Shown here: positions 1 to 14,215 of the stretch, one piece after another
Numbering within the stretch: the stretch's first letter is position 1
Layout: the number at the start of each line of letters is the position of its first letter
Assembly (NCBI GenBank): GCA_030538175.1
Contig: JAUNUL010000011.1
Location: forward strand, 1-14,317
DNA: 14,317 nt
DNA from: Propionibacteriaceae bacterium
GTDB taxonomy: Bacteria; Actinomycetota; Actinomycetes; Propionibacteriales; Propionibacteriaceae
Direction: 5' to 3'
The notes under the pieces: generated by a model
The model's database searches: none
What the model saw: only the letters and a program-made list of their open reading frames with translations
Told to the model about the DNA's origin: nothing
Made by a program: the position numbers and the translations under genes

Positions 1-36
1 CGAAACCCCAGTTGCCTCCGGGCAGCTGGGGTTTCG
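1..36. terminator. Hairpin, probable terminator of an unseen gene
   Basis: The 11-base arm CGAAACCCCAG (1-11) is the exact reverse complement of 26-36. The inner bases extend the stem (13-16 with 21-24) to a TCCG tetraloop, so nearly the whole segment folds. No T-run follows on the plus strand, which is common for high-GC actinobacterial terminators. It probably ends a gene lying left of the window. The direction of use cannot be decided because the flanking gene is not visible. Confidence 0.6.
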
Positions 37-70
37 TGCTGTCCGGACCCTCGCGTTGGTCGTTGTGGTC

Positions 71-142
71 CCCGAAACCCGACAAACGACGAGGGGCCAG
101 CCAAATAGTTGCGTCCGACCCGGCATTTTGTCGGGTTTCGGG
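71..142. repeat. Perfect 16-bp inverted repeat with a 40-nt spacer
   Basis: CCCGAAACCCGACAAA at 71-86 is the exact reverse complement of 127-142. The spacer is 87-126. The arm shares CGAAACCC with the arm of the hairpin at 1-36, so arms of the two structures could also pair with each other. It lies in the gene-free stretch 37-249, where nothing else is visible apart from the end of the GNAT gene at 250. It may be a bidirectional terminator, an attenuator-like RNA, or a small repeat element; the sequence does not decide between these. Confidence 0.7.
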
Positions 143-249
143 AGGCCGCGCGTCCGAATCTGCACGGACAACCGGGCCGCTTGGATAATCCCGATGGCCA
201 GCCTGTGGGTGCATCACGTGCGCCTTGGCAGGAAGGGCCAGGTCACGGA

Positions 250-873
250 TTAGGTGCGGCGTACCATCCGGAACATCGGCCGCCCCAGCCACGGCCCACC
301 CGCTGGACCCGCGGCCCCATCGGGGGAGAAACCGTTGCGCACATAGAAGCGCTCCGCACGAGGATTGTTGGCGATGATCCAGAGGTACGCCGAACGGTCC
401 CCAACCGCAGCCTCGAACAGGGCCTGACCAACACCTGACCCCTGGGCCTGCGGACGCAGGTACAGCCGATCCAACATGTACGGCACATCCACCGGCGGCG
501 GATCGAAGTTGGCCTCCCACCAGTTCTGGCCCGCCCCCGCGCATGCGATCCCGAGGATGCCACGGGGCCCCGCGGCCACGCTTGACCCACCCCCCGGGGT
601 CGTCCGGGCGCCGGGGTTCCCCCCCCTTGGGGGCGCCGCGGCCCCCCAATGCCGCCGGAAGGGTTCCCTCCCCGCGGCCAGGTCGTCGTGCATGGTCGCG
701 AGGTCCACCGCGAGCTCCGCGGCAGCGATTGCCGCCTCCGCCTGCCGCGGGTCGGCGTGCTCAGGGGGCATCAAGTGCGCGTACGTTGCGATCTGCGAGG
801 TGACGTGGGCAGCGACGTACGCCTCAGCGTCCTCGGGTTGGGCGAGCCGGATGCGGTACGCCCAGTGGGTCAC
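250..873 (-). CDS. GNAT-family N-acetyltransferase
   Basis: This 207-residue protein carries the GNAT fold. The acetyl-CoA binding loop is visible as RPQAQGSGVGQALFEAA (residues 140-156), preceded by the strand MLDRLYL. The late motif ANNPRAERFYVRNGF (168-182) is typical of motif B. Family knowledge says it transfers an acetyl group from acetyl-CoA to an amine; the substrate cannot be told. The start is GTG at 871-873, overlapping the stop of the upstream thiamine-binding gene by 4 bases (GTGA), so the two are probably co-translated. Residues about 77-104 are a Gly/Pro/Ala-rich stretch encoded by long C and G runs (about 575-660). It interrupts the central beta region, between FRRHW and GILGIACAG, and looks unlike the rest of the protein. 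The gene may be intact with a low-complexity loop, or the stretch may hide an indel or sequencing artefact. Confidence 0.85.
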   Translation of the reverse strand: MTHWAYRIRLAQPEDAEAYVAAHVTSQIATYAHLMPPEHADPRQAEAAIAAAELAVDLATMHDDLAAGREPFRRHWGAAAPPRGGNPGARTTPGGGSSVAAGPRGILGIACAGAGQNWWEANFDPPPVDVPYMLDRLYLRPQAQGSGVGQALFEAAVGDRSAYLWIIANNPRAERFYVRNGFSPDGAAGPAGGPWLGRPMFRMVRRT

Positions 874-935
874 TCAGCCTCGAGCCTGTCGATCGCGGCC
901 TCGAGGCGATCGAGCTTGCCGGTCAACTCACCGGT
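842..935. repeat. Left copy of direct repeat A (pairs with 7473-7566)
   Basis: This 94-base segment spans the GNAT 5' end and the thiamine-binding gene 3' end. It aligns without gaps to 7473-7566 at a constant offset of 6631, with 8 mismatches by eye (about 91% identity). Both copies end at the same ACCGGT. Confidence 0.9.
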
Positions 936-1172
936 ATGCCCGGGCCGGATGTCGGCCTTGAGGACCAGCGACACCCGGTTGCCGAACCGGCCGACGGCTT
1001 CGGTGGCGCGGCGGACCACGTCCATGCACTCATCCCAGTCACCCTCGATCGTGGTGAACATCGCATCCGTGCGCTTGGGCAGGCCGGACTCCCGGACCAC
1101 CTGCACGGCCGCCGCGACGGCGTCATGGACGGATTCAGAGCCGCTCGGGGCGACGGAAAAGGCAACCAACAT
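870..1172 (-). CDS. MTH1187-family thiamine-binding protein
   Basis: The 100-residue product matches the small MTH1187/YkoF-like thiamine-binding family (formerly DUF77) in length and pattern. It starts MLVAFSVAPSG, has the central MFTTIEGDWDECMDVVRRA, and the strand NRVSLVLKADIRPG. These proteins are small cytosolic ferredoxin-like-fold proteins, some shown to bind thiamine; the exact role is not settled. The start is ATG at 1170-1172 with a modest AGGATGG upstream. It overlaps the GNAT start by 4 bases and is first in that two-gene unit. The C-terminal helix (TGELTGKLDRLEAAIDRLEAE split over residues 80-100) is duplicated in degenerate form at 7501-7566, beside cydC. That suggests this gene once lay directly downstream of cydC. 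Confidence 0.85.
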   Translation of the reverse strand: MLVAFSVAPSGSESVHDAVAAAVQVVRESGLPKRTDAMFTTIEGDWDECMDVVRRATEAVGRFGNRVSLVLKADIRPGHTGELTGKLDRLEAAIDRLEAE

Positions 1173-1252
1173 GAGGCCATCCTGTCAGCCAGGTCAAGCG
1201 AGCTGCGCCACTCAGCATCCGCGAAGGAGCACCCCGGCTCCGCAGGCGCTTC

Positions 1253-1271
1253 GTGCTCGCCACACGAGCAC
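1253..1271 (-). terminator. Small hairpin, possible ancestral cydC terminator
   Basis: GTGCTCG (1253-1259) pairs with CGAGCAC (1265-1271) across a 5-base loop. There is no T-run. It lies between the cydC remnant and the start of the thiamine-binding gene, where a terminator for an ancestral cydC would sit. The corresponding sequence is missing from the right-hand copy. The rest of 1173-1299 shows no gene. Confidence 0.3.
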
Positions 1272-1299
1272 ACCGGCGGCAGCTACCAAGCCAAGTCGG

Positions 1300-1367
1300 G
1301 CTCAGCCCACCTCAACGACGCGGTTACAGCGGTCGACCACCCACGGATCATGGGTGATCACCAGCAC
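1300..1367. repeat. Left copy of direct repeat B (pairs with 7573-7640)
   Basis: This 68-base segment covers the end of a cydC reading frame. It aligns without gaps to 7573-7640 at a constant offset of 6273, with 6 mismatches by eye (about 91% identity). Homology stops abruptly after CCAGCAC. Confidence 0.9.
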
Positions 1368-1370
1368 CGG
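1302..1370 (-). pseudogene. Remnant of the 3' end of cydC
   Basis: Read on the minus strand it encodes SPVLVITHDPWVVDRCNRVV followed by EVG and the stop. This is nearly the same as the last residues of the intact CydC at 7575, including the H-loop histidine of an ABC ATPase. Three of the six base changes alter residues (Arg to Trp, Glu to Asp, Asp to Asn). Upstream of this the cydC similarity ends at once, so no ATPase can be made. An open frame continues to 1493, but it is non-homologous sequence crossing the ptsH terminator. It is a duplicated fragment, not a gene. Confidence 0.9.
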
Positions 1371-1431
1371 CGACGTCCTCGCCAAGGGTCTGGGACTGCT
1401 CGGAATCACCGCGCCCGAGCGGATGTGACCG

Positions 1432-1483
1432 AACTCGCCCGACAGACCGGGAGGTCGAACCTCCGCTGTGTGCCGGGCGAGTT
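1432..1483 (-). terminator. Long hairpin terminator after ptsH
   Basis: AACTCGCCCG (1432-1441) is the exact reverse complement of 1474-1483. Inside, ACAG (1442-1445) pairs with CTGT (1466-1469), and GGAGGT (1450-1455) pairs with ACCTCC (1459-1464) around a 3-base loop. It starts 6 bases beyond the ptsH stop, so it probably ends the fruR-fruK-fruA-ptsH transcript. No U-tract follows. Confidence 0.75.
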
Positions 1484-1489
1484 GGTGGC

Positions 1490-1750
1490 TCACTCCGCGT
1501 CGAGATCCTTTTCGACCAGCGCCGCAATCTCGGCGACAGCAGCCTCGTCGTCGGACGCCACGGTGACGCTGGCACCCTTCTCGGCGCCCAGGGTCATGAT
1601 GAGCAGAGGGCTGGTGGCATCGACAGGGTCCTCCCCCTCGACGGCGAGGGTGATCTCCGCGTCGTACTTCTCGGCGGCTTCGGCGATGATCGCGGCCGGG
1701 CGGGCGTGGAGGCCGACCTCGGAACCGACGATGACGGTGGTGCTGGGCAT
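1490..1750 (-). CDS. ptsH: Phosphocarrier protein HPr
   Basis: This 86-residue cytosolic protein is the usual HPr length. It accepts phosphate from Enzyme I and passes it to the EIIA domain. The active-site histidine is His15 in GLHARPA (residues 13-19). A serine, Ser47 in ATSPLLIM, sits at the position of the regulatory Ser46 of Firmicutes HPr; actinobacteria generally lack HPr kinase, so it is probably not a regulatory site here. The ATG start at 1748-1750 has AGAGGT seven bases upstream. The gene lies 49 bases downstream of fruA on the same strand and is the last gene before a long hairpin, so it should be the last cistron of the fru operon. Assignment is firm from the motif, length and context. 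Confidence 0.96.
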   Translation of the reverse strand: MPSTTVIVGSEVGLHARPAAIIAEAAEKYDAEITLAVEGEDPVDATSPLLIMTLGAEKGASVTVASDDEAAVAEIAALVEKDLDAE

Positions 1751-1799
1751 GGTGTTACCTCTTCCTTGAGTGTGTTGCTGACTGTGGTCGGGAATGGGA

Positions 1800-3869
1800 T
1801 CAGGCGGCGCGGGCCTTGAGCTGCTTCAACAGCAGCACCAGGGCGGCGGAGACGATCATGCCCGCCAGGACCGCGACGATGAAGCCCCAGATGGGGTCAA
1901 TGGCGAAGAACACGAAGATGCCGCCGTGGGGGGCCTTGGACCCGACGCCGAGCGCCATGATCAGCGCTCCGGTCACGGCGCCTCCGGCCATCATCGAGGG
2001 AATGATCCGGAAGGGATCGGCGGCTGCGAACGGAATGGCGCCCTCTGAAATGAACGAGGCACCCAACAGCCAGGCGGCGCGCCCGTTTTCCTGCTCGATC
2101 GGCGTGAACAGCTTTGGCCGAACCGCGGTGGCCAGCGCGAGTGCGAGCGGGGGGACCATGCCGGCTGCCATGACGGCGGCCATGATCTCCATCGAGGGCT
2201 GGCTGCTGACTGCGAGCCCGGCCGTCGCGAAGGTGTAAGCCGACTTGTTGACCGGTCCGCCGAGGTCGAAGCACATCATGAGGCCGAGGACGACCCCCAG
2301 AAGGATGGCAGCGCCGCCGGACATCCCTTCCAGCCAGCCCGTCAGCCCCGTCATCAGGGCCGCCAGGGGTCGGCCGAGCAGGAGGAACATCAGACCGCCC
2401 GATATCAGCGTCGCGATCAGGGGAATGATGACGACCGGCATCAGCCCTCGCACCCAGCGCGGCACCTTGAAGCTGCCCAGCCACATGGCGACCAGACCGG
2501 CGATCAGGCCGCCCGCGATGCCGCCGATGAAGCCGGCGCCCACGACCACAGCCACGGCACCCGCGGTGAATCCCGGAGCGATGCCGGGCCTATCGGCAAG
2601 AGCGAACGCGATATAGCCCGCCAGCGCGGCGACCAGGAAGTTCATTGAGGTCGCACCCAGCGTGAACAGCACCGCGCCGAGATATTGCATCAGCCCGCCC
2701 TCGGGCAGGTTGGTCAGCGAATTCTCGATCACGACCTGATCGGCCACATCGGTGATCTGATAGCCGCCGAACAGGAAGCCCAGCGCGATCAACAAGCCGC
2801 CGGCTGCGACGAACGGAATCATGTAGCTGACGCCGGTCATCAGCGCCTGCTGGATCCGCTTGCCCCAGCCGAGCTGGCTGCCCCTGCCTGTTGCGACGTC
2901 GGCGTCCGCGGCCGGCGTGCCCGACACCCGTGGGGCGTTCGGGTTGTCCGACGCTGCGACGGCTTCCTTGAGCATGACCTCCGGCTCGTTGATCGCGCGC
3001 TTGACCCCGGACTCGATCACGGGTTTGCCGGCGAACCGCTCGCGGCCCTTCACCCCGACATCGGTGGCAAAGATGACGGCATCGGCCGACGCGATCTGTT
3101 CCGCGGTCAGCGAGTCGGTCGCCGTGGAGCCCTGGGGCTCTGTGATGACGTCGATGCCCAGCTCCTTGCCGGCGTTGACGAGATAGTCGGCCGCCATGAA
3201 CGTGTGGGCAATCCCAGTGGGACAAGCGGTGATGGCAATGACAGTCCGCCGCTTATCCGAGCCTTCGGCCTGGCCTGCGATGCCTGGGGCGGCCGCCGCA
3301 CCGGTTGCGGTGGAGACTCCGGCAGCGACCGGCTCAGCGGCTCGAGATGGAGTGGTGTCGGCAGCGGTTGTCGTCTCCCTGGCCGGGGTGGCTGCCGCGC
3401 CGGTGTCGGCCGGAGGCTCGACGACCCCCCGGACCAGGTCGGTGACCTCATCGGGAGACGACGCTGAGCGCAGCGCGGCGAGGAAGTCCTTCTTGATCAG
3501 CGCGCGGGCGAGTTTGGTCAACAGCTTCATATGGTCGGCTCCGCCAGACTCGGCGGCCGCGATGAGGAACACCAGGTCGGACGGGCCGTCCTTGGCGCCG
3601 AAGTCGATGGGCTCGACCAGGCGTGCGAATCCCAGGGAGGCCTGGTTGACCGCGGCTGAGCGGCAATGGGGAATGGCAAACCCACCGGGCATGCCCGTTG
3701 GCGACTTCCCCTCCCGGGTGAGCGCATCGGCTGCCAACCCGTCGGCGTCGGCCCGCCCGGTGGCGGCGACGATCCCGGCGAGGCCACGGATCACGTCCTC
3801 CTTGGTGGATCCGAGGTCGACGTCCACGGCGACGAGGCCCGGCTCGATGAGCGATGGATTGGTGGACAT
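1800..3869 (-). CDS. fruA: PTS fructose-specific EIIABC transporter
   Basis: This 689-residue permease takes up fructose and phosphorylates it to fructose 1-phosphate. EIIA (about 1-150) has its phospho-histidine His68 in FAIPHCRS. An Ala/Thr/Pro-rich linker follows (about 152-206). EIIB (about 207-305) has the active cysteine Cys216 in ITACPTGIAHTFMAA. EIIC (about 335-685) is a multi-helix membrane domain with GGPVNKSAY (537-545), SFISEGAIPF (605-614) and APHGGIF (646-652). The A-B-C order is complete in one chain. The start chosen is ATG at 3867-3869, with AAGGAGAA (complement of 3874-3881) just upstream. The frame is open to 4133, but that extension lies over fruK and is not homologous. 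fruK ends 37 bases upstream. In Corynebacterium the equivalent gene is called ptsF. Confidence 0.95.
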   Translation of the reverse strand: MSTNPSLIEPGLVAVDVDLGSTKEDVIRGLAGIVAATGRADADGLAADALTREGKSPTGMPGGFAIPHCRSAAVNQASLGFARLVEPIDFGAKDGPSDLVFLIAAAESGGADHMKLLTKLARALIKKDFLAALRSASSPDEVTDLVRGVVEPPADTGAAATPARETTTAADTTPSRAAEPVAAGVSTATGAAAAPGIAGQAEGSDKRRTVIAITACPTGIAHTFMAADYLVNAGKELGIDVITEPQGSTATDSLTAEQIASADAVIFATDVGVKGRERFAGKPVIESGVKRAINEPEVMLKEAVAASDNPNAPRVSGTPAADADVATGRGSQLGWGKRIQQALMTGVSYMIPFVAAGGLLIALGFLFGGYQITDVADQVVIENSLTNLPEGGLMQYLGAVLFTLGATSMNFLVAALAGYIAFALADRPGIAPGFTAGAVAVVVGAGFIGGIAGGLIAGLVAMWLGSFKVPRWVRGLMPVVIIPLIATLISGGLMFLLLGRPLAALMTGLTGWLEGMSGGAAILLGVVLGLMMCFDLGGPVNKSAYTFATAGLAVSSQPSMEIMAAVMAAGMVPPLALALATAVRPKLFTPIEQENGRAAWLLGASFISEGAIPFAAADPFRIIPSMMAGGAVTGALIMALGVGSKAPHGGIFVFFAIDPIWGFIVAVLAGMIVSAALVLLLKQLKARAA

Positions 3870-3906
3870 GAAATTCTCCTTTCGGGTGCGACGGTGCACC
3901 GGAGGG

Positions 3907-4863
3907 TCAGATGGCGACGACCTCGACGTCGCCCGGTGAAGCCTGATGGGGCGCCGGCACCGTAGTGCCGGGCAGAGATGCTGCGGCCGACCCGTAGGCG
4001 ACGGCGTTGCGCAGGAGAGCGGGGCCGGTGTGGCCGGAGCATGCGGCGAGGACATAGCCGGCGAGGGATGAGTCGCCGGCACCCACCGTGGACAGGACGG
4101 TGACCGGGGGCGCGGCCGCCCGCCAGGCACCATCGGCCGTCACGAGCAGTGCGCCCGAACCGCCGAGGGTCACCAGCGCGGCACCGACTCCGCGGTCGAC
4201 CAGTCCCCGGGCCGCCGCGACGATCGGTGCGAGATCGCCTGCGGCGGCAGCCACCTCCAGCTCGTGACCGTTGCCGCCGACCAGCTGGGCAAGCTCATCG
4301 GAGTTGGGCTTGATCAGGTCGGGAGCGGCCAAGTCGAGTGAGTCGGCCAACGCGCGCAGAGGTGCGTCGGAGGTGTCGACAGCTATGCGTACGCCCAGCG
4401 GGCGCAGAGCGCGAACCATCCGTGCGTACCAATCCACCGGGGCCCCCGGCGGCAGCGAACCGGACAGGGTGACCCAGCGGGCGTTGCGGGCCGAGCCGAC
4501 CAGGATGTCGGTGAGCATTTCGACCTGCTGCTCGGAGACGGGCGCGCCCGGCGCGTTGAACTTGGTGGTTGTCCCGTCCTGCTCGGTCAGAGTGAGGTTG
4601 GTGCGCACCGGTGAATCCACGGCTACATTGCGATAGGGAAGCCCGATCGCCGTGAGTGCGGTGAGGAGCGGGTCGTGGGATGCGGCGGGAACCACCGCCA
4701 GCACGGGCTGCCCCGCCAGATGGACCGCGCGGGCGATATTGACACCCTTGCCGCCCGGTTCGGTGGTGATGTCGGTGAGGCGATGCACGCCACCGCGCTC
4801 GACGGTGCCCAGCACACGCGCTGTGCGATCCAGGCTGGGGTTGGGAGTGAACGTGACGATCAT
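3907..4863 (-). CDS. fruK: 1-phosphofructokinase
   Basis: This 318-residue PfkB-family sugar kinase phosphorylates fructose 1-phosphate, the product of FruA, to fructose 1,6-bisphosphate, feeding glycolysis. The N-terminus MIVTFTPNPSLDRT is typical of FruK. GGKGVNIARAVHLAG (about 38-51) is the first PfkB signature. KPNSDEL (185-191) is conserved. The second signature, STVGAGDSSLAGY (258-270), holds the catalytic base Asp264. The length matches the family. The ATG overlaps the fruR stop by 4 bases (ATGA), so it is translationally coupled to the regulator. The gene lies 37 bases upstream of fruA in the same operon. A LacC-type tagatose 6-phosphate kinase would look similar, but the EIIABC-Fru neighbour makes FruK the clear choice. 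Confidence 0.95.
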   Translation of the reverse strand: MIVTFTPNPSLDRTARVLGTVERGGVHRLTDITTEPGGKGVNIARAVHLAGQPVLAVVPAASHDPLLTALTAIGLPYRNVAVDSPVRTNLTLTEQDGTTTKFNAPGAPVSEQQVEMLTDILVGSARNARWVTLSGSLPPGAPVDWYARMVRALRPLGVRIAVDTSDAPLRALADSLDLAAPDLIKPNSDELAQLVGGNGHELEVAAAAGDLAPIVAAARGLVDRGVGAALVTLGGSGALLVTADGAWRAAAPPVTVLSTVGAGDSSLAGYVLAACSGHTGPALLRNAVAYGSAAASLPGTTVPAPHQASPGDVEVVAI

Positions 4864-5618
4864 GCGACCACGACCTCGATTCCTTCCTCGGTGATCCGCT
4901 GGTGTTGGTTTTCGGTGATGCTGCTGTCGGTGATCAGGACGTCGACGGCGTTGAGCGCGGCGAAACTCACCGTGGTTTCGACGCCCAACTTGCGGGAGTC
5001 GGCGAGCACGACGACCCTCTCGGCGGCCCGCACCATCGCCTCCTTCATGGCCGCCTCGTCCAGGTCGGGGGTCGAGAAGCCGTGGGCGGCGGAGATGCCG
5101 TTGGTGCCGATGAAGGCGACGTCCACGCGGAGCCGGGCGAACTCTGCGGGTGAGCCGACGATCGCCTGGGTGATGCCCCGCAGCCGCCCGCCGACGACCC
5201 GCACGTCCGCATGTGGCCGATTGGCCGAGATCGACTGGGCCGCTGGGAGAGAATTGGTCACGACGACGAAGTCATTGCTCAGGATCCGAGCCAGACGGCC
5301 GGTGGTCGTGCCGGCGTCGACGATGATCGCAGCGCCCGGCTCGGGGAGTTGGGCCAGTGCGGCCACGGCGATCCGCTCCTTTTCGGCGCTGGCTACGGTG
5401 TCGCGGTCACTGATCGATCGATCGCCCAGATTGAGGCTCTCCGCCAGCACGGCCCCGCCGTGCACCCTCCGCAGGACGCCCTGACGGTCGAGGACCTCGA
5501 GGTCGCGACGGATGGTCTCGGGCGTGACATCGAAGCGATCAGCCGCAAGCGTGACAGTGATGCGTCCATCGACGCGGGCGAAGTCGATGAGTGCCGCCCG
5601 GCGCTCCTCTGCATACAT
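4860..5618 (-). CDS. fruR: DeoR-family transcriptional regulator of the fructose operon
   Basis: This DeoR-type repressor has 252 residues from ATG at 5616-5618. A GTG two codons upstream (5622-5624) is also possible. It sits only 4 bases from the AGGGAGG ribosome site, while the ATG is 10 away, and family members usually begin MYAEERR, so the ATG is preferred. Residues about 20-57 form the winged helix-turn-helix (LAADRFDVTPETIRRDLEVL, then RRVHGGAV). The C-terminal sugar-phosphate sensor domain shows DAGTTTGRLA, FIGTNGISAAHGF and DEAAMKEAMV. It is first in the operon, overlaps fruK by 4 bases, and diverges from ptsI. By analogy with corynebacterial FruR it probably senses fructose 1-phosphate (or fructose 1,6-bisphosphate) and controls both divergent transcripts. 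The ligand is inferred. Confidence 0.9.
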   Translation of the reverse strand: MYAEERRAALIDFARVDGRITVTLAADRFDVTPETIRRDLEVLDRQGVLRRVHGGAVLAESLNLGDRSISDRDTVASAEKERIAVAALAQLPEPGAAIIVDAGTTTGRLARILSNDFVVVTNSLPAAQSISANRPHADVRVVGGRLRGITQAIVGSPAEFARLRVDVAFIGTNGISAAHGFSTPDLDEAAMKEAMVRAAERVVVLADSRKLGVETTVSFAALNAVDVLITDSSITENQHQRITEEGIEVVVA

Positions 5619-5684
5619 GGCCACGATGCCTCCCTTGCGTCACTGCTGATCCAATGAATCATCCAAAACAAACGCAATCGGATG

Positions 5685-5710
5685 TTGAAATATGTCCGAT
5701 CATATTTGAA
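5685..5710. promoter_or_regulatory. Candidate FruR operator, inverted repeat
   Basis: TTGAAATATG (5685-5694), six bases TCCGAT, then CATATTTGAA (5701-5710): the arms match at 9 of 10 positions. It lies in the AT-richer fruR-ptsI intergenic region and directly abuts the putative ptsI -35 box. A regulator bound here could affect both divergent promoters. The link to FruR rests on position and symmetry only. Confidence 0.55.
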
Positions 5711-5714
5711 TGTG

Positions 5715-5743
5715 TTGTCTTTGGCAACCTTTTCGCGTACTCT
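5715..5743 (+). promoter_or_regulatory. Putative ptsI promoter
   Basis: TTGTCT (5715-5720) and TACTCT (5738-5743) are separated by 17 bases and fit a housekeeping -35/-10 pair. The predicted transcription start, near 5750, leaves a short leader with a strong ribosome site. The matching minus-strand promoter for fruR, expected within about 5640-5690, could not be picked out with confidence. Confidence 0.5.
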
Positions 5744-5765
5744 TCTGGAAAGAGCCCAGGTCCCC

Positions 5766-5773
5766 AAGGAGGT
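5766..5773 (+). promoter_or_regulatory. Ribosome binding site that fixes the ptsI start
   Basis: AAGGAGGT lies seven bases before ATG 5781. The frame is open up to 5682, but an ATG there would fall inside the promoter/operator region and lacks a ribosome site, so 5781 is the real start. Confidence 0.85.
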
Positions 5774-5780
5774 AGGACCC

Positions 5781-7454
5781 ATGTCAGGAACCACGATCAT
5801 CGGCACCGGCGTAGTGCCCGGAGTGGCCCGCGGCCCCGCTCTCTGGACGTCGCCGCGCCCTCAACTCCCGGAGCATCAGCCGACCGTCGCCGAGGCAGAG
5901 CGAGCAGCGGAGGCCGACCGGTTCCGCGCCGCGGCCGCGACCGTTTCGGGCCGGCTTGCCGATCGTGCCTCCGCGGCCTCGGGTGCCGCTGCGAATGTGC
6001 TCGGCGCCACTGCGGCCCTCGCCAGGGACAAGGGCTGGATGAAGGCGGCGGAGAAACGAATTGCCGGCGGGATGCCCGCGGCGCACGCGGCGGTGGCAGC
6101 GACCGAACAGTTCGCCACTCTCTTCGAGAAGATGGGCGGCCTGATGGCCGAGCGCGTCACCGACCTCCGGGACATCAGGGACCGGGTGATCGCCGAACTG
6201 CTCGGTCAGCCCGAACCCGGCGTGCCCATGCCCGCCCAACCGTCGGTCCTGCTGGCCGATGACCTGGCTCCCGCCGACACAGCCGGGCTGGATCCCCTGC
6301 TCATCGTCGCGCTAGTCACCGAGCTCGGCGGGCCGACGTCACACACGGCCATCATCGCCCGGCAGTTGGGTATTCCCTGCATCGTGGCGGCCGAGGCCAT
6401 CGGCGGCATCGCCGTTGGCACAGACCTGCTGGTCGACGGGGCCGCCGGCACGGTCCGGGTCGGTGTCGACCCGACCGAGGCGGATCGTCTCGTCACCGAG
6501 GACGCGGTCCGCCGCGAGGCCATCCGGGCCTGGCGAGGCCCGGCCCGCACCGCCGACGGGCACGACGTGCAATTGCTGGCGAACGTGCAGGACGGCGCAG
6601 GTGCCCGGGCGGCGGTGGAGAAATCCCAGGCCGAAGGGGTCGGGCTGTTCCGGACCGAGCTGTGCTTCCTCTCGGCCGATACCGAGCCGACCGTCGACCG
6701 CCAGCGGGAGATCTATGCCGAGGTGCTCACGGCGTACTCAGATCGAAAAGTCGTGATGCGGACGCTCGATGCCGGTTCCGACAAGCCGCTGAAGTTCGCC
6801 AACCTGGAACACGAGGAGAATCCGGCGATGGGCGTCCGCGGGATCCGACTGGCTACCGGCGACCCCGGCCTCCTGACCCGTCAGCTCGATGCCATCGCTG
6901 GTGCCGCCCGGCAAACAGGCAATCAGCCATGGGTCATGGCACCCATGGTCGCCACGGTCGACGAGGCGCGTGACTTCGCGGTGGCCTGCCGCGAGCGCAA
7001 ACTGGTGCCGGGCATCATGGTTGAGGTCCCCGCCGTGGCCGTCCGGGCGCGGTTCTACCTGGAGCATGTCGACTTCCTGTCGATCGGCACGAACGACCTC
7101 GCGCAATACACGATGGCGGCGGACCGGATGTCGCCGAGGCTTGCTGCCTTAACCGATCCGTGGCAGCCGGGTGTGCTGCAGCTCGTGGCCGATACGGCCC
7201 GAGCCGGTGCCGAGGCCGGGAAGCCCGTGGGTGTCTGCGGCGAGGCTGCTGCGGACCCCCAGCTCGCCTGTGTGCTGATCGGGTTCGGGATCACCTCCCT
7301 GTCGATGGCCCACGGCGCAGTTGCCGGCGTTGGCGCCCAATTGGCTTCGGTCACTCTCGACCAATGTCACGAAGCCGCGGAGGCGGTGTTGGAGGCACCC
7401 GATGCCCAGACAGCTCGAAACGCAGCTCGGGTGGCTTTGAGTTCGGTGGCCTGA
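5781..7454 (+). CDS. ptsI: PTS Enzyme I (phosphoenolpyruvate-protein phosphotransferase)
   Basis: This 557-residue cytosolic enzyme takes phosphate from phosphoenolpyruvate and hands it to HPr, starting the PTS relay. The N-terminal domain begins MSGTTIIGTGVVPGVARGPA. The phosphohistidine is His188 in ELGGPTSHTAIIARQLGIP. The C-terminal PEP-binding barrel shows GLFRTELCFL, MRTLDAGSDKP, GIMVEVPAVA, SIGTNDLAQYTMAADR and the active-site cysteine motif GVCGEAA. Length is close to the usual 570, so the gene appears complete. It diverges from fruR across a 150-base control region. It is separated from the convergent cydC by 120 bases holding a decayed duplicate of other genes. As general Enzyme I it could serve other PTS transporters elsewhere in the genome. 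Confidence 0.96.
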   Translation: MSGTTIIGTGVVPGVARGPALWTSPRPQLPEHQPTVAEAERAAEADRFRAAAATVSGRLADRASAASGAAANVLGATAALARDKGWMKAAEKRIAGGMPAAHAAVAATEQFATLFEKMGGLMAERVTDLRDIRDRVIAELLGQPEPGVPMPAQPSVLLADDLAPADTAGLDPLLIVALVTELGGPTSHTAIIARQLGIPCIVAAEAIGGIAVGTDLLVDGAAGTVRVGVDPTEADRLVTEDAVRREAIRAWRGPARTADGHDVQLLANVQDGAGARAAVEKSQAEGVGLFRTELCFLSADTEPTVDRQREIYAEVLTAYSDRKVVMRTLDAGSDKPLKFANLEHEENPAMGVRGIRLATGDPGLLTRQLDAIAGAARQTGNQPWVMAPMVATVDEARDFAVACRERKLVPGIMVEVPAVAVRARFYLEHVDFLSIGTNDLAQYTMAADRMSPRLAALTDPWQPGVLQLVADTARAGAEAGKPVGVCGEAAADPQLACVLIGFGITSLSMAHGAVAGVGAQLASVTLDQCHEAAEAVLEAPDAQTARNAARVALSSVA

Positions 7455-7472
7455 GAGACGCGGGCCTCCAGT

Positions 7473-7492
7473 GCGTACCGGATGCGGTACGC
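7473..7492. terminator. Small hairpin between the convergent ptsI and cydC
   Basis: GCGTACC (7473-7479) pairs with GGTACGC (7486-7492) around six bases. It lies 19 bases beyond the ptsI stop. The left arm differs from the corresponding left-copy sequence by two bases, so the perfect stem exists only here. It is a possible terminator for ptsI, with no T-run. Confidence 0.3.
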
Positions 7493-7500
7493 CCACCGGG

Positions 7501-7566
7501 TCACTCAGCCTCGATCCTGTCGATCGCGGCCTCCGGGCGATCAAGCTTGCCGGTCAACTCACCGGT
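7501..7566 (-). pseudogene. Remnant of the thiamine-binding protein 3' end (and GNAT start)
   Basis: On the minus strand it encodes TGELTGKLDRPEAAIDRIEA plus a final Glu and stop. This is the C-terminal helix of the protein at 870-1172, with two Leu changed to Pro and Ile. The overlapping GTGA then starts MTRWAYRIRYA, a copy of the GNAT N-terminus (MTHWAYRIRLA), before similarity ends near 7473. The first four-fifths of the thiamine-binding gene are absent here, so it cannot be functional. Confidence 0.9.
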
Positions 7567-7572
7567 GTTGGT

Positions 7573-7640
7573 GCTCAGCCCACCTCAACGACCCGGTCAC
7601 AGCGCTCGACCACCCGCGGGTCGTGGGTGATCACCAGCAC
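7573..7640. repeat. Right copy of direct repeat B (pairs with 1300-1367)
   Basis: This is the 3' end of the intact cydC, 68 bases with 6 mismatches to 1300-1367. It is part of the functional gene, so this is the copy under selection. Confidence 0.9.
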
Positions 7641-9236
7641 GGGGTCGCCCGCCGAAACTTCCCAGATGTCGGCCATCAGTGCATCGGCGGTCTCGGCGTC
7701 CAGGTGTTCGGTCGGCTCGTCGAGGATCCAGCACTGGTGTTCCCCGAGCAGGACCCGGGCCAGCGCCACCCGTCGGGCCTCGCCGCCGGACAGCATGGCG
7801 CCCTCCTCGCCGACGATCCGCTGCGGGTTCATCCGCAACCCGGCCCGCTGCAGCGCGTGCGCCAGTTGCTCCTCGGTCGCATCCTTGTTGCCGATCCGCA
7901 CGTTCTCGGCGACCGAGGTGTTGAAAATGTGGGCGTCCTGCGCGAGATAGCCGACGGTCCCGTCGACCCGAACCTGACCGCTGATCGGCGGGATCAGCCC
8001 CATCAACGTGGCGGCGATCGTGGTCTTGCCGATCCCGGATGGCCCCACCAGGGCCACTCGCTCACCGGGCTGCACCTGCAGGTCCACCCCGGTCAGGACC
8101 GGGGCAGATCCCGGCCAGCCCACTGCCGCATCCCGCAGTTCCAGAAGGGGCTGCTCAGCGTGCTCGCCGGCCGCCCGGTCCCCGCGACCCAGCGGCGCGG
8201 AGTCGAGGACCTGGGTGACCCTCGCGAGCCCCGCGGTCGCCCGGGTATGTGTCTGTGCCGCCTGGGTCAGCGTCGACAGCACCTCGTGCAGCGCGAGCGG
8301 GACGAGGACGAGCGTGCCAAGCGCGACCCGGTTGAGGTCGCCGTTCGCCACGGCCGGTACGCCCACTGCGAGCGCGACCAGCACCGCGAACCCCGCAGCG
8401 AGCACCTGGACACCGGCGGCCAGGCCGCGGACGACCGATGCCCGTTCCTCAGCGGTCCGCAGGCGCTCATCGACGGCCAGGAGAGCCTCCACCCGAGCGG
8501 TGTCACCGTACGCCGCCAGGTCGTCGGCGGCCCGGTTGATCTCCCGGACCCGGTCGGCGAGCTCACCTCGGGCCGGCACCGTTGCTGCGTCAGCATTGCG
8601 GGAGGCCCGCTGCGCCAACCGCGGCACGATCACGCCGGCGATGATCGCCGACACGAACAGTGCAATCCCGGCGATGGGGGAGAGCACGGTCATCGCGATC
8701 GAGGCGACAAAGGTGATCAACCCGGCCGATGCGAATGGCAGCGCCACCCGCACGATCAGATCCTGGATGGCCTCGACGTCCTTCACCACCCGCACCAGCA
8801 GGTCACCGCGTCGCTGCCCGAGCAGTGTCGTCGCGGACAGCCGGGCGTACGTCTGGATCCGCAACAACGACTGCATCCGCAGGGCGAGTGTGTGGGAGGT
8901 GATCCGCTCGGCGTACCTGAACACGGCCCGGAAGAGGCCGCACGCGCGGACGATGACGATGATGACCATCAGATACAGCACCGGTGGGTGCTCCGCGGCC
9001 CGCGACAGCAGCCACGCCGATGCGCCCATCAGCGTGACCGCGGTGAGCGAGGTCAGAAACTGCAACCCCAGCGAGACCCCGAACAGCGTCCGCGAGCGTG
9101 GGACCTCGGGCATCAACTCCCGAGCCAGGGCGAACGGCGAGCGACCCCGTGTGACCGTGGGCGCCCCAGCGGAGTCAGCGGTGGGGATCGGGCTGCTGGC
9201 TGACTGATCTGGGCGGGTCGAAATCTCCTGGCTCAT
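7575..9236 (-). CDS. cydC: CydC, ABC exporter half required for cytochrome bd assembly
   Basis: This 553-residue half-transporter has a membrane domain (about 48-320) followed by an ATPase domain (about 363-553). Walker A is GPSGIGKT (398-405), the signature is LSGGEA (482-487), Walker B is CWILDEP (502-508) and the H-loop is His538. With CydD it forms the CydDC exporter. CydDC has been linked to thiol (cysteine/glutathione) export and, more recently, to haem handling needed to assemble cytochrome bd. Both subunits appear ATPase-competent at motif level. The first about 45 residues are Ser/Ala/Pro-rich and probably disordered. The start overlaps the cydD stop by one base (TGATG). A broken copy of its last residues lies at 1302-1370. 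The CydC/CydD names rest on order and motifs. Confidence 0.9.
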   Translation of the reverse strand: MSQEISTRPDQSASSPIPTADSAGAPTVTRGRSPFALARELMPEVPRSRTLFGVSLGLQFLTSLTAVTLMGASAWLLSRAAEHPPVLYLMVIIVIVRACGLFRAVFRYAERITSHTLALRMQSLLRIQTYARLSATTLLGQRRGDLLVRVVKDVEAIQDLIVRVALPFASAGLITFVASIAMTVLSPIAGIALFVSAIIAGVIVPRLAQRASRNADAATVPARGELADRVREINRAADDLAAYGDTARVEALLAVDERLRTAEERASVVRGLAAGVQVLAAGFAVLVALAVGVPAVANGDLNRVALGTLVLVPLALHEVLSTLTQAAQTHTRATAGLARVTQVLDSAPLGRGDRAAGEHAEQPLLELRDAAVGWPGSAPVLTGVDLQVQPGERVALVGPSGIGKTTIAATLMGLIPPISGQVRVDGTVGYLAQDAHIFNTSVAENVRIGNKDATEEQLAHALQRAGLRMNPQRIVGEEGAMLSGGEARRVALARVLLGEHQCWILDEPTEHLDAETADALMADIWEVSAGDPVLVITHDPRVVERCDRVVEVG

Positions 9237-11020
9237 CAGTGGCCTCCCTCGTCCGGGCTCCTGGTGTGATCCGTCTCGGCCGAGGCAGCAGCCACGCCGG
9301 CCAGCGCCTCCTGTGGGATGCGGTCCGGCGGCCCTGACTCGTCGACGACGTCGACCGCAGGCTCGGGGGCCGGCAGCTCGATGACCCGATCGGCGGCGGC
9401 CAGCACGGCCGGTCGGTGGGTGACGACGAGGGCGCCTGTGCCGCTGCGGCGTACGCCGGCCAGGACCGCCGCCTCGGTATCGCCATCGAGCCCCGCGGTC
9501 GGTTCGTCGAGTACCAACAGCCTGGCCCCGGCATCGATCCGCAGCAGGGCCCGGGCCATGGCGATGCGCCGGATCTCACCGGCGGACAGGTTCTCGCCCG
9601 CATCGTCGACGTCGCGCTCGGGCGCCAAGCCGTCCGCCCCCGCTCGCTGCAGGGCATCGGCGACCGCGGCGTCGCTGGCGTCCGGGTTGCCGAGGCGGAC
9701 GTTGTCGGCGATCGTGCCGCTGACCAGCCCGGGTTCCTGCGCGACGTACGCCAACTGTGCCCGCCACGAGGCGATGTCCAGTTCGAACAGCAACCGGTCG
9801 CCGACGTAGATGCTGCCCTCGCTGGGCGTCCAGAACCCCATGAGCAGCGCCAACGCGGTCGATTTGCCGCACCCCGAGGGGCCGGCCAGGGCGACCACCT
9901 CGCCGGGTTGCACGGTGAGGGAGAAGTCAGTCAGCGCGGCGACCTTGCCCTCGGGATAGGTGAATCCCACCCGGTCGAACCGGATCGGCACCTCCGCCAC
10001 CGACGGCGCGGAAACGGTCCCGGGCTTGCCGCCGGCACCTTCGATGACTGCGAACGCATCATCCGCGGCCGCGATGCCGTCAACGGAGTCGTGATAGTGG
10101 ACGCCGACCTGGCGCACGGGCAGGTAGACCTCGGGCACCAGGATCAGCACGAACAACCCCGTGACCAGGTCCATCCGGTTGTCGACGATCAGCAGGCCGA
10201 CCGGGACCGCGACCAGCGCAACGGAATAGGTCGCGAGCAGCTCCAGGGCGAACCCGGACAGGAACGACACCCGCAGCGTCGACATCGTCTCCGAGCGGTG
10301 CTTCTGCTCGGTGATCTCCAGCCCGATGGTCTGGTTCTTCGCCCGCCCGAATGCCTGCAGGGTCGGCAGGCCGGTGACGAGGTCGCCGAAGTGATTGGCC
10401 AGCCGGCGCTGCGTACGCCAACTCTTCGCCATCTTCACCTTGGTCGCGAGCCCGATCAACACCATGAACACCGGGATCAACGGCAACGACACCGCCACGA
10501 TCAAGGCGGAGGTGACGTGGGTGGTGAAGATCGCGACGCCAACGATCAGCGGGATCGTGAACGCGAGGGCGAGCTGGGGGAGATAGCGGGCGAAATAGCC
10601 GTCGAGCGCATCCAAGCCATGGGTCAGCAGGGCAATGAGGGATCCGGTCGAGGTCTCGGTCCGCCCCGGGGCCCGGAGGCGGGCGGCGATGATGTCGGCC
10701 CGCAGTTGGGACTTCACCGCGGCAGCGGAGCGGTGCGCTAGCCAGGAGTTCAGCCAGGCCAGCAGTGCGCGCCCGGCGATGATCGCGGCCAGCACACCCA
10801 GTGCAGCCCACAACCCACCGAAGGGCATGGCATCGATGCTGCCCTGCTGGGTGCCGTCCACCCCGCGCGAGTCGAAGACGCGGGCGATCATCCGGGACAG
10901 GATCCAGGCCTGGCAGACCACCAGGACCGCCGTCGCGCTGCCCACTGCCACGCCGGCGATCAGATAGGACTTCGTCGCCTTCGCGCGGGTCAACAGTCTG
11001 TGATCTATCGCTCCGGCCAT
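9236..11020 (-). CDS. cydD: CydD, ABC exporter half required for cytochrome bd assembly
   Basis: This 594-residue half-transporter partners CydC. The membrane domain covers about 18-310 and the ATPase domain about 345-550. Walker A is GPSGCGKS (380-387), the signature is the variant LSAGEIRR (478-485), Walker B is LLVLDEP (501-507), and the H-loop histidine is His535 in VVTHRP. A 45-residue acidic, Pro/Ala-rich tail follows the ATPase domain (about 550-594), beyond the usual end. ATG at 11018-11020 is the chosen start; no good ribosome site is seen before it. The gene is separate from cydC, unlike the fused form in Streptomyces. It lies 105 bases after cydB, with a strong terminator-like hairpin between them, so the assembly genes may be transcribed at a lower level than cydAB. 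Confidence 0.9.
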   Translation of the reverse strand: MAGAIDHRLLTRAKATKSYLIAGVAVGSATAVLVVCQAWILSRMIARVFDSRGVDGTQQGSIDAMPFGGLWAALGVLAAIIAGRALLAWLNSWLAHRSAAAVKSQLRADIIAARLRAPGRTETSTGSLIALLTHGLDALDGYFARYLPQLALAFTIPLIVGVAIFTTHVTSALIVAVSLPLIPVFMVLIGLATKVKMAKSWRTQRRLANHFGDLVTGLPTLQAFGRAKNQTIGLEITEQKHRSETMSTLRVSFLSGFALELLATYSVALVAVPVGLLIVDNRMDLVTGLFVLILVPEVYLPVRQVGVHYHDSVDGIAAADDAFAVIEGAGGKPGTVSAPSVAEVPIRFDRVGFTYPEGKVAALTDFSLTVQPGEVVALAGPSGCGKSTALALLMGFWTPSEGSIYVGDRLLFELDIASWRAQLAYVAQEPGLVSGTIADNVRLGNPDASDAAVADALQRAGADGLAPERDVDDAGENLSAGEIRRIAMARALLRIDAGARLLVLDEPTAGLDGDTEAAVLAGVRRSGTGALVVTHRPAVLAAADRVIELPAPEPAVDVVDESGPPDRIPQEALAGVAAASAETDHTRSPDEGGH

Positions 11021-11048
11021 GGGGGAGAGTCTGCCCCATCACAGCAAA

Positions 11049-11084
11049 AGGCCCGAGCCGGTCCGGTGGGACGGGCTCGGGCCT
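11049..11084 (-). terminator. Intrinsic terminator between cydB and cydD
   Basis: AGGCCCGAGCC (11049-11059) is the exact reverse complement of 11074-11084, with a 14-base loop. On the minus strand the stem is followed by TTTT, giving a good rho-independent terminator 42 bases past the cydB stop. It should stop or attenuate cydAB transcription before cydDC. Confidence 0.8.
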
Positions 11085-11125
11085 GCTGGCTCGGGGCGAG
11101 TCTCTTTCGAGGTACGCCCAGTTGG

Positions 11126-12169
11126 TCAGTGCACCGGCTGCTGCGGCGCGGCGGCGGGGAGGTTCTTGGTGCTGATCCGCTTGCGGAACACCCAGAACGT
11201 CCAGGCCTGATAGCCGAGCACGACGGGCAGGAAGATCGCCGTGGCGACGGTCATGATCGTCAGGGTGTAGGACGTCGAGGCCGCGGACTGGATGGACAGG
11301 TCGTTGCCGGCGGTGAGGGCCGGGACGACGTTCGGCCACATCGCGATGAACATGCCGGCGACGGTGGTGAGGATGCTCACGACGGTGCCGATGAACGCCC
11401 AACCCTCGCGGCCCTTGCTGTTCATGAACCAGGCAATGCCGACACCGGCGATGGCGAGCACCGCGATGACCAGGCTCAGCGCCCCCTTGCCCCAGCCGAG
11501 GCTCAGCCAGATGCCGAAGGCAGCGACGAGGACGATCGCGGCGATGCCGATCTTGGCGGCGAAGTTGCGGGCCTGTTCGCGGATGTCGCCTCGGGTCTTC
11601 AGCGCGATGAACAGCGCGCCATGGAACATGAAGACCGCCAGGAAGGTGATCCCACCGAGCAGGGCGAACGGGTTGAACAGGCCGAGGATGTTGCTGAACG
11701 TGCCGTCCATGACCCAGTTGCGCTGGACCGGATCAGCCACGATCGGCAGGCCGCGGACGAAGTTCGCGAAGCCGACGCCCAGCACCAGCGGCACCACATA
11801 GGAGCCGAACATGATGAAACCGTCGAACAGCTTGCGCCAGTCATCCCGGTCGTGCTTGTGGCGATATTCGAAGGAGACACCGCGCAGGATGAGCCCCAAC
11901 AGCACCAGGAACAGCGGGATATAGAGCCCGGAGAAGACCGTGGCATACCACTCCGGGAAGGCGGCGAACATCGCACCACCGGCGGTCAGCAGCCACACTT
12001 CGTTGCCGTCCCAGACCGGGCCGATCGTGTTGATCATCACCCGCCGGTTTTCTTCCTTGCGGCCCAGGATCGGAAACAGCATGCCGACCCCGAAGTCGAA
12101 TCCTTCCAGGACGAAGAACCCGATCCACAGGATGGCGATCGCGACGAACCAGATCTCAGCGAGAGTCAT
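11126..12169 (-). CDS. cydB: Cytochrome bd oxidase subunit II
   Basis: This 347-residue integral membrane protein is subunit II of the bd-type quinol oxidase and pairs with CydA. Conserved family segments are clear: LEGFDFGVG (21-29), GPVWDGNEVWL (50-60, with the conserved Trp and Asp), FPEWYA (71-76) and RGVSFEYR (96-103). Multiple hydrophobic helices cover the rest. The C-terminus is short and cytosolic. The length is slightly under the E. coli protein (379), which is normal for Gram-positive forms. It starts 34 bases after cydA; the GGGGAAA before the ATG is only a weak ribosome site. No CydX-like small ORF is seen between it and cydD. Confidence 0.95.
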   Translation of the reverse strand: MTLAEIWFVAIAILWIGFFVLEGFDFGVGMLFPILGRKEENRRVMINTIGPVWDGNEVWLLTAGGAMFAAFPEWYATVFSGLYIPLFLVLLGLILRGVSFEYRHKHDRDDWRKLFDGFIMFGSYVVPLVLGVGFANFVRGLPIVADPVQRNWVMDGTFSNILGLFNPFALLGGITFLAVFMFHGALFIALKTRGDIREQARNFAAKIGIAAIVLVAAFGIWLSLGWGKGALSLVIAVLAIAGVGIAWFMNSKGREGWAFIGTVVSILTTVAGMFIAMWPNVVPALTAGNDLSIQSAASTSYTLTIMTVATAIFLPVVLGYQAWTFWVFRKRISTKNLPAAAPQQPVH

Positions 12170-12203
12170 GTCAGATTTCCCCGTTCAGCTTCCAGGTCCG
12201 CGA

Positions 12204-13712
12204 TCAGTAGGCGAAGGTCAGCGGAGCGTCGTCGTCCTCAAGGACCTTCGGCTCCTCGACATAGTCGGGCAGGCCAGCACGGATGTAGTGCAGGAGCAGC
12301 TTCACCTCGATGACGGCGAGGACGCCGTAGACAACGGTGAACCCGATCAGCGAGAACAGCATCTGGCCGGCGGTGACGCCCGGTGAGACACCCGCCTGGG
12401 TCGGCATCAGACCGAAGACGACCCACGGCTGGCGGCCCATCTCGGTGAAGATCCAGCCGAACGAGTTGCCGAACAGCGGGGCCAGGGGCAGGACCACCAT
12501 CAAGGGGACCCACAGCTTGCCTCTGGGCAGACGGTCACCGCGCAGGACCCACAGCATCCAGGCGCCGATCGCCATGGCGATCATGCCGAGGGTGATCATG
12601 ATCCGGAAGGTCCAATAGGTCACGATGATGTTCGGGTGATAGCCGTTCTGAGCGAAATGGTCCGCGACCTCATCGCCATAACGCTCCCGCAGCATCGGGG
12701 TGAATTCCTGCTGATATTGCGCTTCCAGCGGCCGGATGCCGGGCACAGGTTCGGTGAAGTTGCCATAGGACAGGAACGACAGCAGGCCCGGCAGGTGGAT
12801 GGCGAAGACTTCCTCATCGGCCTCGCGGTTGCCGATGGTGAGGATCGAGAAGTCCGTTGTCGACTCGAACGCACCCTCGGCCGCGGCCATCTTCATCGGT
12901 TGCTTCTCATACATCGCCTTGCCCTGGAAGTCGCCGCTGATCATCACGCCCATGCCGGCGATGATGAGCACGATCGCACCGAACTTGGCGGCGAAGCGAT
13001 AGGGGATGACCTCGTGGTCATGGTCGGCGATCTTCTGCATGCCCTCAACGTCGTTCAAGTCGGCCTGGGCCGGACGCAGCTTGTTCAACCGATGCAGGTG
13101 CCAACCGGCGACGGCGGCCAGGAACGATGCGGAGACGAGCCAGGCCGCGGTCATCTGGTGCGGGAACGTCGCGATGAAGACCTTGTTGGTCAACACGGCA
13201 ACGAAGTCGGTGAGCTCGGCGCGGTTGGTCTCTGGGTTGAACCGATAGCCCTCGGGGTTCTGCATGAAGGCATTGGCCGCGAGGATGAACACCGCGGAGA
13301 GGTTCGTGCCGATCGCAACCAGCCAGATCGTGGCTAGGTGCAGGTGCTTGTTCAGCCGGTCCCAGCCGAAGATCCACAGGCCGAGGAACGTGGATTCCAT
13401 GAAGAACGCGAGCAGCGCCTCCAGGGCCAGCGGTGCGCCGAAGATGTCACCGACGAAGCGCGAATATTCGGACCAGTTCATGCCGAACTGGAATTCCTGC
13501 ACGATGCCCGTGACAAGGCCCATCGCAAAGTTGATCAGGAAGAGTTTTCCGTAGAACTTCGTCAACCGCAGATAGTTCTGGTTGCCGGTGCGCACCCACA
13601 ACGTCTGCAGAATCGCCACCAGCCACGACAGGGCGAGCGTGATCGGAACGAAGAGGAAGTGATAGACGGTGGTGATGCCGAACTGCCACCGAGCGATGGT
13701 TTCCGAGCTCAT
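12204..13712 (-). CDS. cydA: Cytochrome bd oxidase subunit I
   Basis: This 502-residue subunit of the quinol oxidase reduces oxygen to water with electrons from menaquinol or ubiquinol, working at low oxygen. Haem ligands are visible by family alignment: His18 (VYHFLFVP), His185 (FPHQMTAA) and Met372 (FRIM). Glu99 and Glu106 in ALEALLAFFMESTFLG correspond to the proton-path glutamates. KQPMKMAAAEG (270-280) is the start of the quinol loop, and GRQPW (426-430) is conserved. The distance from this motif to Met372 is about 100 residues, against about 140 in E. coli, suggesting the short Q-loop type. The start is set at MSSETIARWQFG; the open frame to 13946 crosses the divergent regulator and is rejected. 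No ribosome site precedes this ATG, so a leaderless or very short leader is possible. Confidence 0.95.
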   Translation of the reverse strand: MSSETIARWQFGITTVYHFLFVPITLALSWLVAILQTLWVRTGNQNYLRLTKFYGKLFLINFAMGLVTGIVQEFQFGMNWSEYSRFVGDIFGAPLALEALLAFFMESTFLGLWIFGWDRLNKHLHLATIWLVAIGTNLSAVFILAANAFMQNPEGYRFNPETNRAELTDFVAVLTNKVFIATFPHQMTAAWLVSASFLAAVAGWHLHRLNKLRPAQADLNDVEGMQKIADHDHEVIPYRFAAKFGAIVLIIAGMGVMISGDFQGKAMYEKQPMKMAAAEGAFESTTDFSILTIGNREADEEVFAIHLPGLLSFLSYGNFTEPVPGIRPLEAQYQQEFTPMLRERYGDEVADHFAQNGYHPNIIVTYWTFRIMITLGMIAMAIGAWMLWVLRGDRLPRGKLWVPLMVVLPLAPLFGNSFGWIFTEMGRQPWVVFGLMPTQAGVSPGVTAGQMLFSLIGFTVVYGVLAVIEVKLLLHYIRAGLPDYVEEPKVLEDDDAPLTFAY

Positions 13713-13725
13713 GGCGGCCAACGTA

Positions 13726-13738
13726 CTACTCGCTGTAG
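13726..13738. promoter_or_regulatory. Imperfect CTAC/GTAG dyad near the cydA start
   Basis: CTACTCGCTGTAG has four matching bases at each end around an imperfect centre. It resembles the better dyad at 13793-13805 and lies 13 bases before the cydA ATG, where it could cover the promoter. It is a weak candidate for a second MecI/BlaI-type site. Confidence 0.35.
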
Positions 13739-13792
13739 GAGAACGGTACTCCCCAGACGCCATATGAACGTAACAGATAGGGCGCAGTACTC

Positions 13793-13805
13793 TTACAGGC
13801 TGTAG
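13793..13805. promoter_or_regulatory. Candidate MecI/BlaI-type operator
   Basis: TACAG-G-CTGTA (13794-13804) is a perfect 11-base dyad, embedded in TTACAGGCTGTAGTA. The TACA/TGTA core is the known recognition pattern of BlaI/MecI repressors. It sits 23 bases before the start of the adjacent BlaI-type gene, so autoregulation is likely. It lies 81 bases from the cydA start. Confidence 0.6.
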
Positions 13806-13827
13806 TAGAGCATGCGACGATGGGCGC

Positions 13828-14193: not shown

Positions 14194-14215
14194 CCGACCG
14201 CGACCGGCAGGCGGG

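Follow-up and report, generated by a model that had tools for sequence, protein, structure and literature searches.

In the draft genome of a Propionibacteriaceae bacterium (G000), a complete sugar phosphotransferase system (PTS) lies between two partial copies of a single gene junction, and we propose that the PTS genes were probably captured as a linear DNA fragment at a chromosomal break, in an event that duplicated a long stretch of the target and was followed by decay of the duplicate. The window, by which we mean the whole 14,317-nucleotide stretch analyzed (positions 1-14317), lies within a 21,075-base contig of the 3.2-Mb genome. From left to right it holds genes for a GNAT acetyltransferase and a thiamine-binding protein, both on the minus strand, then the PTS block, then cydC, cydD, cydB, and cydA; these last four names are taken from context, the proteins of cydC and cydD having been run through Pfam, which identified them as ABC exporters. 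Within the block, the genes for HPr, a fused EIIABC transporter, a PfkB-type kinase, and a DeoR-family regulator are on the minus strand, and that for Enzyme I (EI) is on the plus strand. Pfam agreed with the gene reading for all 10 window proteins submitted, naming GNAT, Thiamine_BP, HPr, EIIA/EIIB, PfkB, DeoR, EI, the two ABC exporters, and, to the right of these, a Penicillinase_R protein. The comparison set comprised G000 and 56 other genomes, and five genomes (G000 to G004) represent the genus.

The case for a duplication begins with the two flanks of the block, whose genes and repeats are as follows.

250 to 873, minus strand: GNAT acetyltransferase, intact left copy (Pfam Acetyltransf_7; 71% amino acid identity to G001 over 178 codons)
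870 to 1172, minus strand: thiamine-binding protein, intact left copy (Pfam Thiamine_BP, E 1.8e-26; 91% amino acid identity to G001)
842 to 935: repeat A, left copy, covering the GNAT 5′ end and the thiamine-binding gene 3′ end (94 nucleotides, 91% identical to 7473-7566)
1184 to 1299: spacer from the intact thiamine-binding gene to the cydC stub (about 116 bases versus 31 in G001)
1300 to 1370, minus strand: repeat B, left copy, a cydC 3′ stub (71 nucleotides, 90% identical to 7573-7643)
7473 to 7566: repeat A, right copy, GNAT and thiamine-binding gene stubs (repeat search)
7573 to 7643, minus strand: repeat B, right copy, the 3′ end of the intact cydC (repeat search)
7575 to 9236, minus strand: cydC, intact (Pfam ABC exporter; 87% amino acid identity to G001)

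Repeats A and B are direct, their order and orientation being preserved from one side of the PTS block to the other. On the left, the GNAT and thiamine-binding genes are whole and cydC is a 3′ stub; on the right, cydC is whole and the remains of the other two are about 32 nucleotides from the 5′ end of the GNAT gene and the final 22 codons of the gene for the thiamine-binding protein. A preliminary description of this DNA had reported both the paired repeats, at about 91% identity, and this reciprocal pattern of stubs and intact genes, and both were recovered here by a repeat search and by BLAST against the organism's own genome (90 to 91% identity). With positions 842-1500 as query and an E cutoff of 0.001, the right-hand copies were the sole other matches in the G000 assembly, which is 87.8% complete (E 9.7e-32 and 7.6e-21), which excludes a chance origin of the repeats. 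The next-longest two-copy repeat family shown (76 nucleotides, 72%) arises because the two neighboring exporter genes are paralogous in their ABC domains. Absent from the earlier account are an argS fragment, considered below, and the unequal spacing of the repeats, A and B being separated by 6 nucleotides in the right copy versus 364 in the left. The right copy has no counterpart of 936-1299; loss of that segment and a separate templated insert give the same picture. A search with 1170-1310 for the origin of the left-hand spacer found, in the five genus genomes, short weak matches besides the query itself (best E 0.012).

The site as it stood before the insertion can be read from the relatives. 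In G001, the closest relative examined as judged by cydC (87% amino acid identity) and the thiamine-binding protein (91%), 46 bases separate the start of the thiamine-binding gene from the final cydC codon and no PTS intervenes, so that this genome offers a single uninterrupted target with no insert. The same gene order is found in G002, G003, and G004, with 1.1 to 4.4 kb between the two genes; in G003, this interval (L188:7532-8413) includes a 293-amino-acid open frame without a Pfam match. Across the 56 other genomes, the thiamine-binding gene and cydC are less than 5 kb apart in the same order and strand in at least 11 (G001-G004, G010, G014, G015, G016, G019, G023, and G028), consistent with the ancestral order of GNAT, thiamine-binding gene, and cydC that had been proposed from the sequence of G000. 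(The best named homologue of the thiamine-binding protein is from Granulicoccus sp., at 92%.) Near-full-length ptsI matches of at least 45% identity occur in 24 genomes besides G000. In 10 of these, ptsI is on the contig of the best cydC match, always at least 223 kb away; in 13, the two are on different contigs, an arrangement that in drafts is compatible with closeness; and the remaining genome (G055) has no cydC row among the matches listed. The arrangement anticipated for close relatives, with the thiamine-binding gene beside cydC and the PTS elsewhere or absent, is thus the one encountered: the genes are adjacent in G001, the PTS of G003 is elsewhere, and G001, G002, and G004 have no detectable HPr, a protein detected among the five genus genomes in G000 and G003 alone.

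The likely source of the block is apparent from G003, in which the whole of it is matched end to end. Its parts are as follows.

1372 to 7455: the whole putatively captured donor block (end-to-end match to G003:C1:54458-60495, 89.4%)
1372 to 1428, plus strand: argS 3′ stub, the last 18 codons and stop (50 of 57 bases shared with G003 argS, 42 of 57 with the host's own, 44 of 57 with G001)
1429 to 1489: hairpin between the argS stub and ptsH (fold of -41.5 kcal/mol for 1425-1495; -56.7 for the G003 stretch)
1490 to 1750, minus strand: HPr (ptsH; Pfam PTS-HPr, GLHARPAA motif), the sole HPr found in G000
1800 to 3870, minus strand: fructose-type EIIA-EIIB-EIIC fusion (Pfam PTS_EIIA_2 and PTS_IIB; 94% amino acid identity to G003)
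3907 to 4863, minus strand: 1-phosphofructokinase-type PfkB kinase (Pfam PfkB; close homologues named 1-phosphofructokinase)
4860 to 5624, minus strand: DeoR-family regulator (Pfam HTH_DeoR and DeoRC; 93% amino acid identity to G003)
5784 to 7454, plus strand: Enzyme I (ptsI; Pfam PEP-utilizers domains, GGPTSHTA motif; 95% amino acid identity to G003)

The starts of EIIABC and ptsI are approximate, the open frames extending to 4133 and beginning at 5682, respectively, and the EIIC part is assigned from length, Pfam having named EIIA and EIIB. In G003, the block sits directly downstream of argS, about 504 kb from cydC, with argS as its neighbor on one side and a gene without a Pfam match on the other, and it carries no comparable flanking duplication (a search of L187:4300-13600 for direct repeats of at least 25 nucleotides gave 14 families, with a longest unit of 43 nucleotides). 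The surroundings of argS fetched from G000, G001, G002, and G004 contain no match to the PTS block. Synonymous divergence (dS) from G003 is lower for the PTS genes (ptsI 0.25, HPr 0.26, deoR 0.35, EIIABC 0.37, kinase 0.40) than for the other genes compared (cydB 0.43, cydA 0.63, argS 0.74, cydC 0.83, cydD 0.87, thiamine-binding gene 0.87, GNAT 1.26). DeoR has a 93% match in G003, none in G001 or G004, and one weak match in G002 (E 1.9e-4); for EI, the G001 match is at 36%, and the matches in G002 (E 7.6e-9) and G004 (E 1.3e-8) are weak. Separately, G000 has a second, distant EI-like gene outside the acquired block (C179:311-1918, 35% identity), with similar genes in G001 and G003 (36 to 37%). 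Because of the donor neighborhood, the likeness of the argS stub to G003, and the lower dS of the PTS genes, the simplest account is that a fragment of an argS-PTS locus like that of G003, though not necessarily from G003 itself, brought in the PTS by horizontal transfer. This argument, which agrees with the horizontal origin suggested in the preliminary description, rests on presence and absence, the block being found within the genus in G000 and G003 alone, and on synonymous divergence.

Where the duplicated junction came from bears directly on how the block was joined to the chromosome. Between the two copies, 15 of 165 positions are mismatched. At comparable coding sites, the mismatches number 11 of 131 between the copies, whereas the intact copies show 24 of 131 against G001 and 25 of 130 against G003. 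At 5 of the 15 differing sites, all aligned outgroups agree, and the stub is in each case the changed copy (two-sided p 0.06). When the thiamine-binding stub was aligned with the ten top-ranking homologues of the 120 listed, among which the protein encoded in the window ranks first, a leucine conserved in all ten full-length sequences was found to be a proline in the stub, and the stub C-terminus, IDRIEAE, resembled the host IDRLEAE and not the IDKLETE of the nearest sister found (P0002, 97% identical). Because the copies are closer to each other than to G001 or G003, and because the C-terminal residues of the stub are host-like, the comparison is suggestive of host-lineage DNA that was duplicated and then decayed, rather than of a junction contributed by the donor.

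This outcome divides the earlier interpretation, in which the locus was the product of a single crossover with incoming DNA that carried the PTS genes and its own related junction. Its repeats, their order, and the horizontal origin of the PTS stand; the junction carried by the incoming DNA finds no support, given a G003-like argS stub, a G003 cydC some 504 kb from the PTS, and host-like gene stubs. In the form of a circle (or linear DNA) bearing the PTS and a GNAT/thiamine-binding/cydC junction and integrating by one homologous crossover, that explanation predicts the same division of stubs and intact genes, and the approximately 530 bp involved here falls within the range of the 109- to 950-bp lacZ duplications in 14 sequenced E. 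coli clones described in the available part of one study (PMC3240628). We nonetheless consider it unlikely, since the end of argS carried by the PTS indicates argS rather than cydC as the donor neighbor, and a circle with junction copies of host-lineage appearance would have to be assembled beforehand from donor and host-like DNA.

In the reading that we favor, an ancestor of the G000 bacterium would have received a linear chromosomal fragment from a G003-like congener, beginning with the final 57 bp of argS and ending shortly after the ptsI stop. This fragment, whose ends had no long match to the target, would have been inserted at a break in the host cydC/thiamine-binding gene/GNAT junction. 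In the process, some 530 bp of the host target (842-1370 in the left copy) would have been duplicated, so that a partial copy lies on each side, and the right copy would have lost about 360 bp, at once or later; the products would look the same had a 71-bp target duplication been accompanied, at the right junction, by a templated insert of 94 bp. Each gene would thereby survive intact once in the host, GNAT and thiamine-binding on the left and cydC on the right, with the stubs left to decay. End joining as the route and the original size of the duplication are what we infer from these products; the repeats, the donor neighborhood, the absence of the block in relatives, and the lower synonymous divergence are observed. 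By eye, the block ends share 3 to 4 bases with the target, CACG on the left (cydC/argS) and possibly GCG on the right. All five genus genomes encode Ku. No tRNA was found in the window, to which that scan was limited, and no mobile-element, transposase, or integrase Pfam domain was found in the 10 window proteins and 4 further contig proteins scanned.

Three further explanations were considered. An ancestor might have held the argS-PTS arrangement seen in G003, with the block later reaching the cyd locus by copying or movement and disappearing from argS; the G003 block does lie at argS, and the regions that flank it are also found around the host argS. Yet the PTS dS from G003 is about half that of most other genes compared (few genes), the argS stub resembles that of G003 more closely than it does the argS of the host (over 57 bases), and HPr is undetected in three of the five genus genomes, making an intragenomic move improbable. 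We regard as very improbable an origin of the rearranged locus in a sister lineage outside the sample, with transfer to G000 by ordinary homologous replacement across the cyd region. Recombination in this region is possible: in three overlapping 500-bp stretches of cydA (12361-13660), identity is 82.2 to 85.8% to G003 versus 77.8 to 82.0% to G001, a preference not seen in cydC that may mark a separate recombination tract. However, a sister lineage merely shifts the same event elsewhere, and the dS from G001 of the thiamine-binding gene, cydC, and cydD (0.70 to 0.78) is similar to that of argS on another contig (0.65). Finally, we give hardly any credence to an assembly artefact that fused a G003-like contig to the cyd contig, even in a draft of 553 contigs (87.8% complete, 5.1% estimated contamination), since the block differs from G003 by 10.6% and an assembler seems unlikely to make two partial copies diverged by 9% or a diverged argS stub.

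Several observations weigh against capture of a linear fragment with duplication of host DNA. The stubs are only 165 bp long in total, and at 10 of their 15 differing sites, the outgroups disagree; at site 1368, two of three outgroups side with the stub. Third codon positions account for 8 of the 15 differences between stub and intact copy, compared with 18 of 24 against G001 and 18 of 25 against G003 (p 0.19 and 0.31), and when GNAT sites are left out so that like is compared with like, the count of 7 of 11 is non-discriminating (p 0.69 and 0.70). The dS of cydB from G003 (0.43) is near the highest PTS value (0.40). The presence of Ku means that the machinery exists and is no sign that end joining acted, and the mechanism of the break is unseen. 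Moreover, the rearranged structure is known from one contig of one metagenome bin.

Insertion with long target duplication was reportedly described in Helicobacter pylori by Nobusato et al. in 2000 (Gene 259:99-108), often with restriction-modification genes. In the portions available of five papers on the subject, it is likewise described for restriction-modification genes, chiefly in Helicobacter (PMC1643837, PMC3031569, PMC4978471, PMC2749054, and PMC3154945). As in those accounts, the block here is missing from a relative, and direct repeats of target DNA lie on both sides of the insert, in what may be one long contiguous duplication derived from the host. The differences are that the cargo is a sugar PTS in an actinobacterium, the link to restriction-modification genes there being frequent and non-defining, and that the copies here are decayed, one has an internal gap, and the donor neighborhood is traceable. 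In the accessible text of PMC3240628, the lacZ partial duplications are explained by single crossovers with truncated circular plasmids. That process resembles ours in placing an insert next to partial duplicates of 109 to 950 bp, but it needs a circle with host homology, none of which is seen here, the G003 block lying between argS and the unmatched gene. The homology-facilitated illegitimate recombination discussed in the same text joins foreign DNA through short microhomology at the illegitimate end (3 to 10 bp there), as may have happened here, but it usually deletes host DNA and requires homology at one end. In the parts consulted of the literature on PTS transfer in Propionibacteriaceae, illegitimate recombination, and end joining, no directly matching report was found. 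Judged against these portions of the literature, the locus extends duplication-type insertion, described for restriction-modification genes, to a complete actinobacterial sugar PTS.

The content of the block is otherwise ordinary. In the PTS blocks of other genera in the family and order (e.g., G023, G015, and G040), deoR likewise adjoins ptsI, and compared with those blocks, the only unusual feature here is the position beside cydC. The parts of a fructose PTS are all found, namely EI, HPr, EIIA/B/C (EIIC from length), and a 1-phosphofructokinase-type kinase, and fructose specificity is inferred from the family names and the kinase type. Nonsynonymous divergence (dN) from G003 is 0.024 to 0.033 for the PTS genes; because of these values and the presence of the EI GGPTSHTA and HPr GLHARPAA motifs, the block probably works in at least one of the two lineages, a judgment that, like the specificity, is made from sequence. 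The hairpin between the argS stub and ptsH probably acts as a terminator in both directions and would have moved together with the block. As a check for relaxed constraint, outgroup polarity assigned 8 ptsI changes to G000 versus 6 to G003 (12 of 26 unresolved) and 7 deoR changes to G000 versus 2 to G003 (7 of 16 unresolved), a hint that deoR is changing faster in G000. In a scan for ptsI across genome contigs, the 80 loci kept of 119 reached at most 67% identity to ptsI and form no part of the argument.

Our impression is that such cases are rare. Here, both joints, the donor neighbor argS, and a relative with the empty site survive, and the order of events is therefore largely readable. It is possible, and we advance it tentatively, that break repair by end joining, accompanied by long duplication of the target, serves Ku-bearing actinobacteria generally as a transposon-free means of acquiring whole metabolic modules from neighboring chromosomes; this locus would then be an example in which the donor neighborhood, the host target, and the decay of the stubs can all be read. 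For this genus, in which three of the four other genomes have no detectable HPr, the locus suggests that a whole PTS, comprising EI, HPr, EIIABC, the kinase, and the regulator, may be gained in one step of approximately 6 kb.

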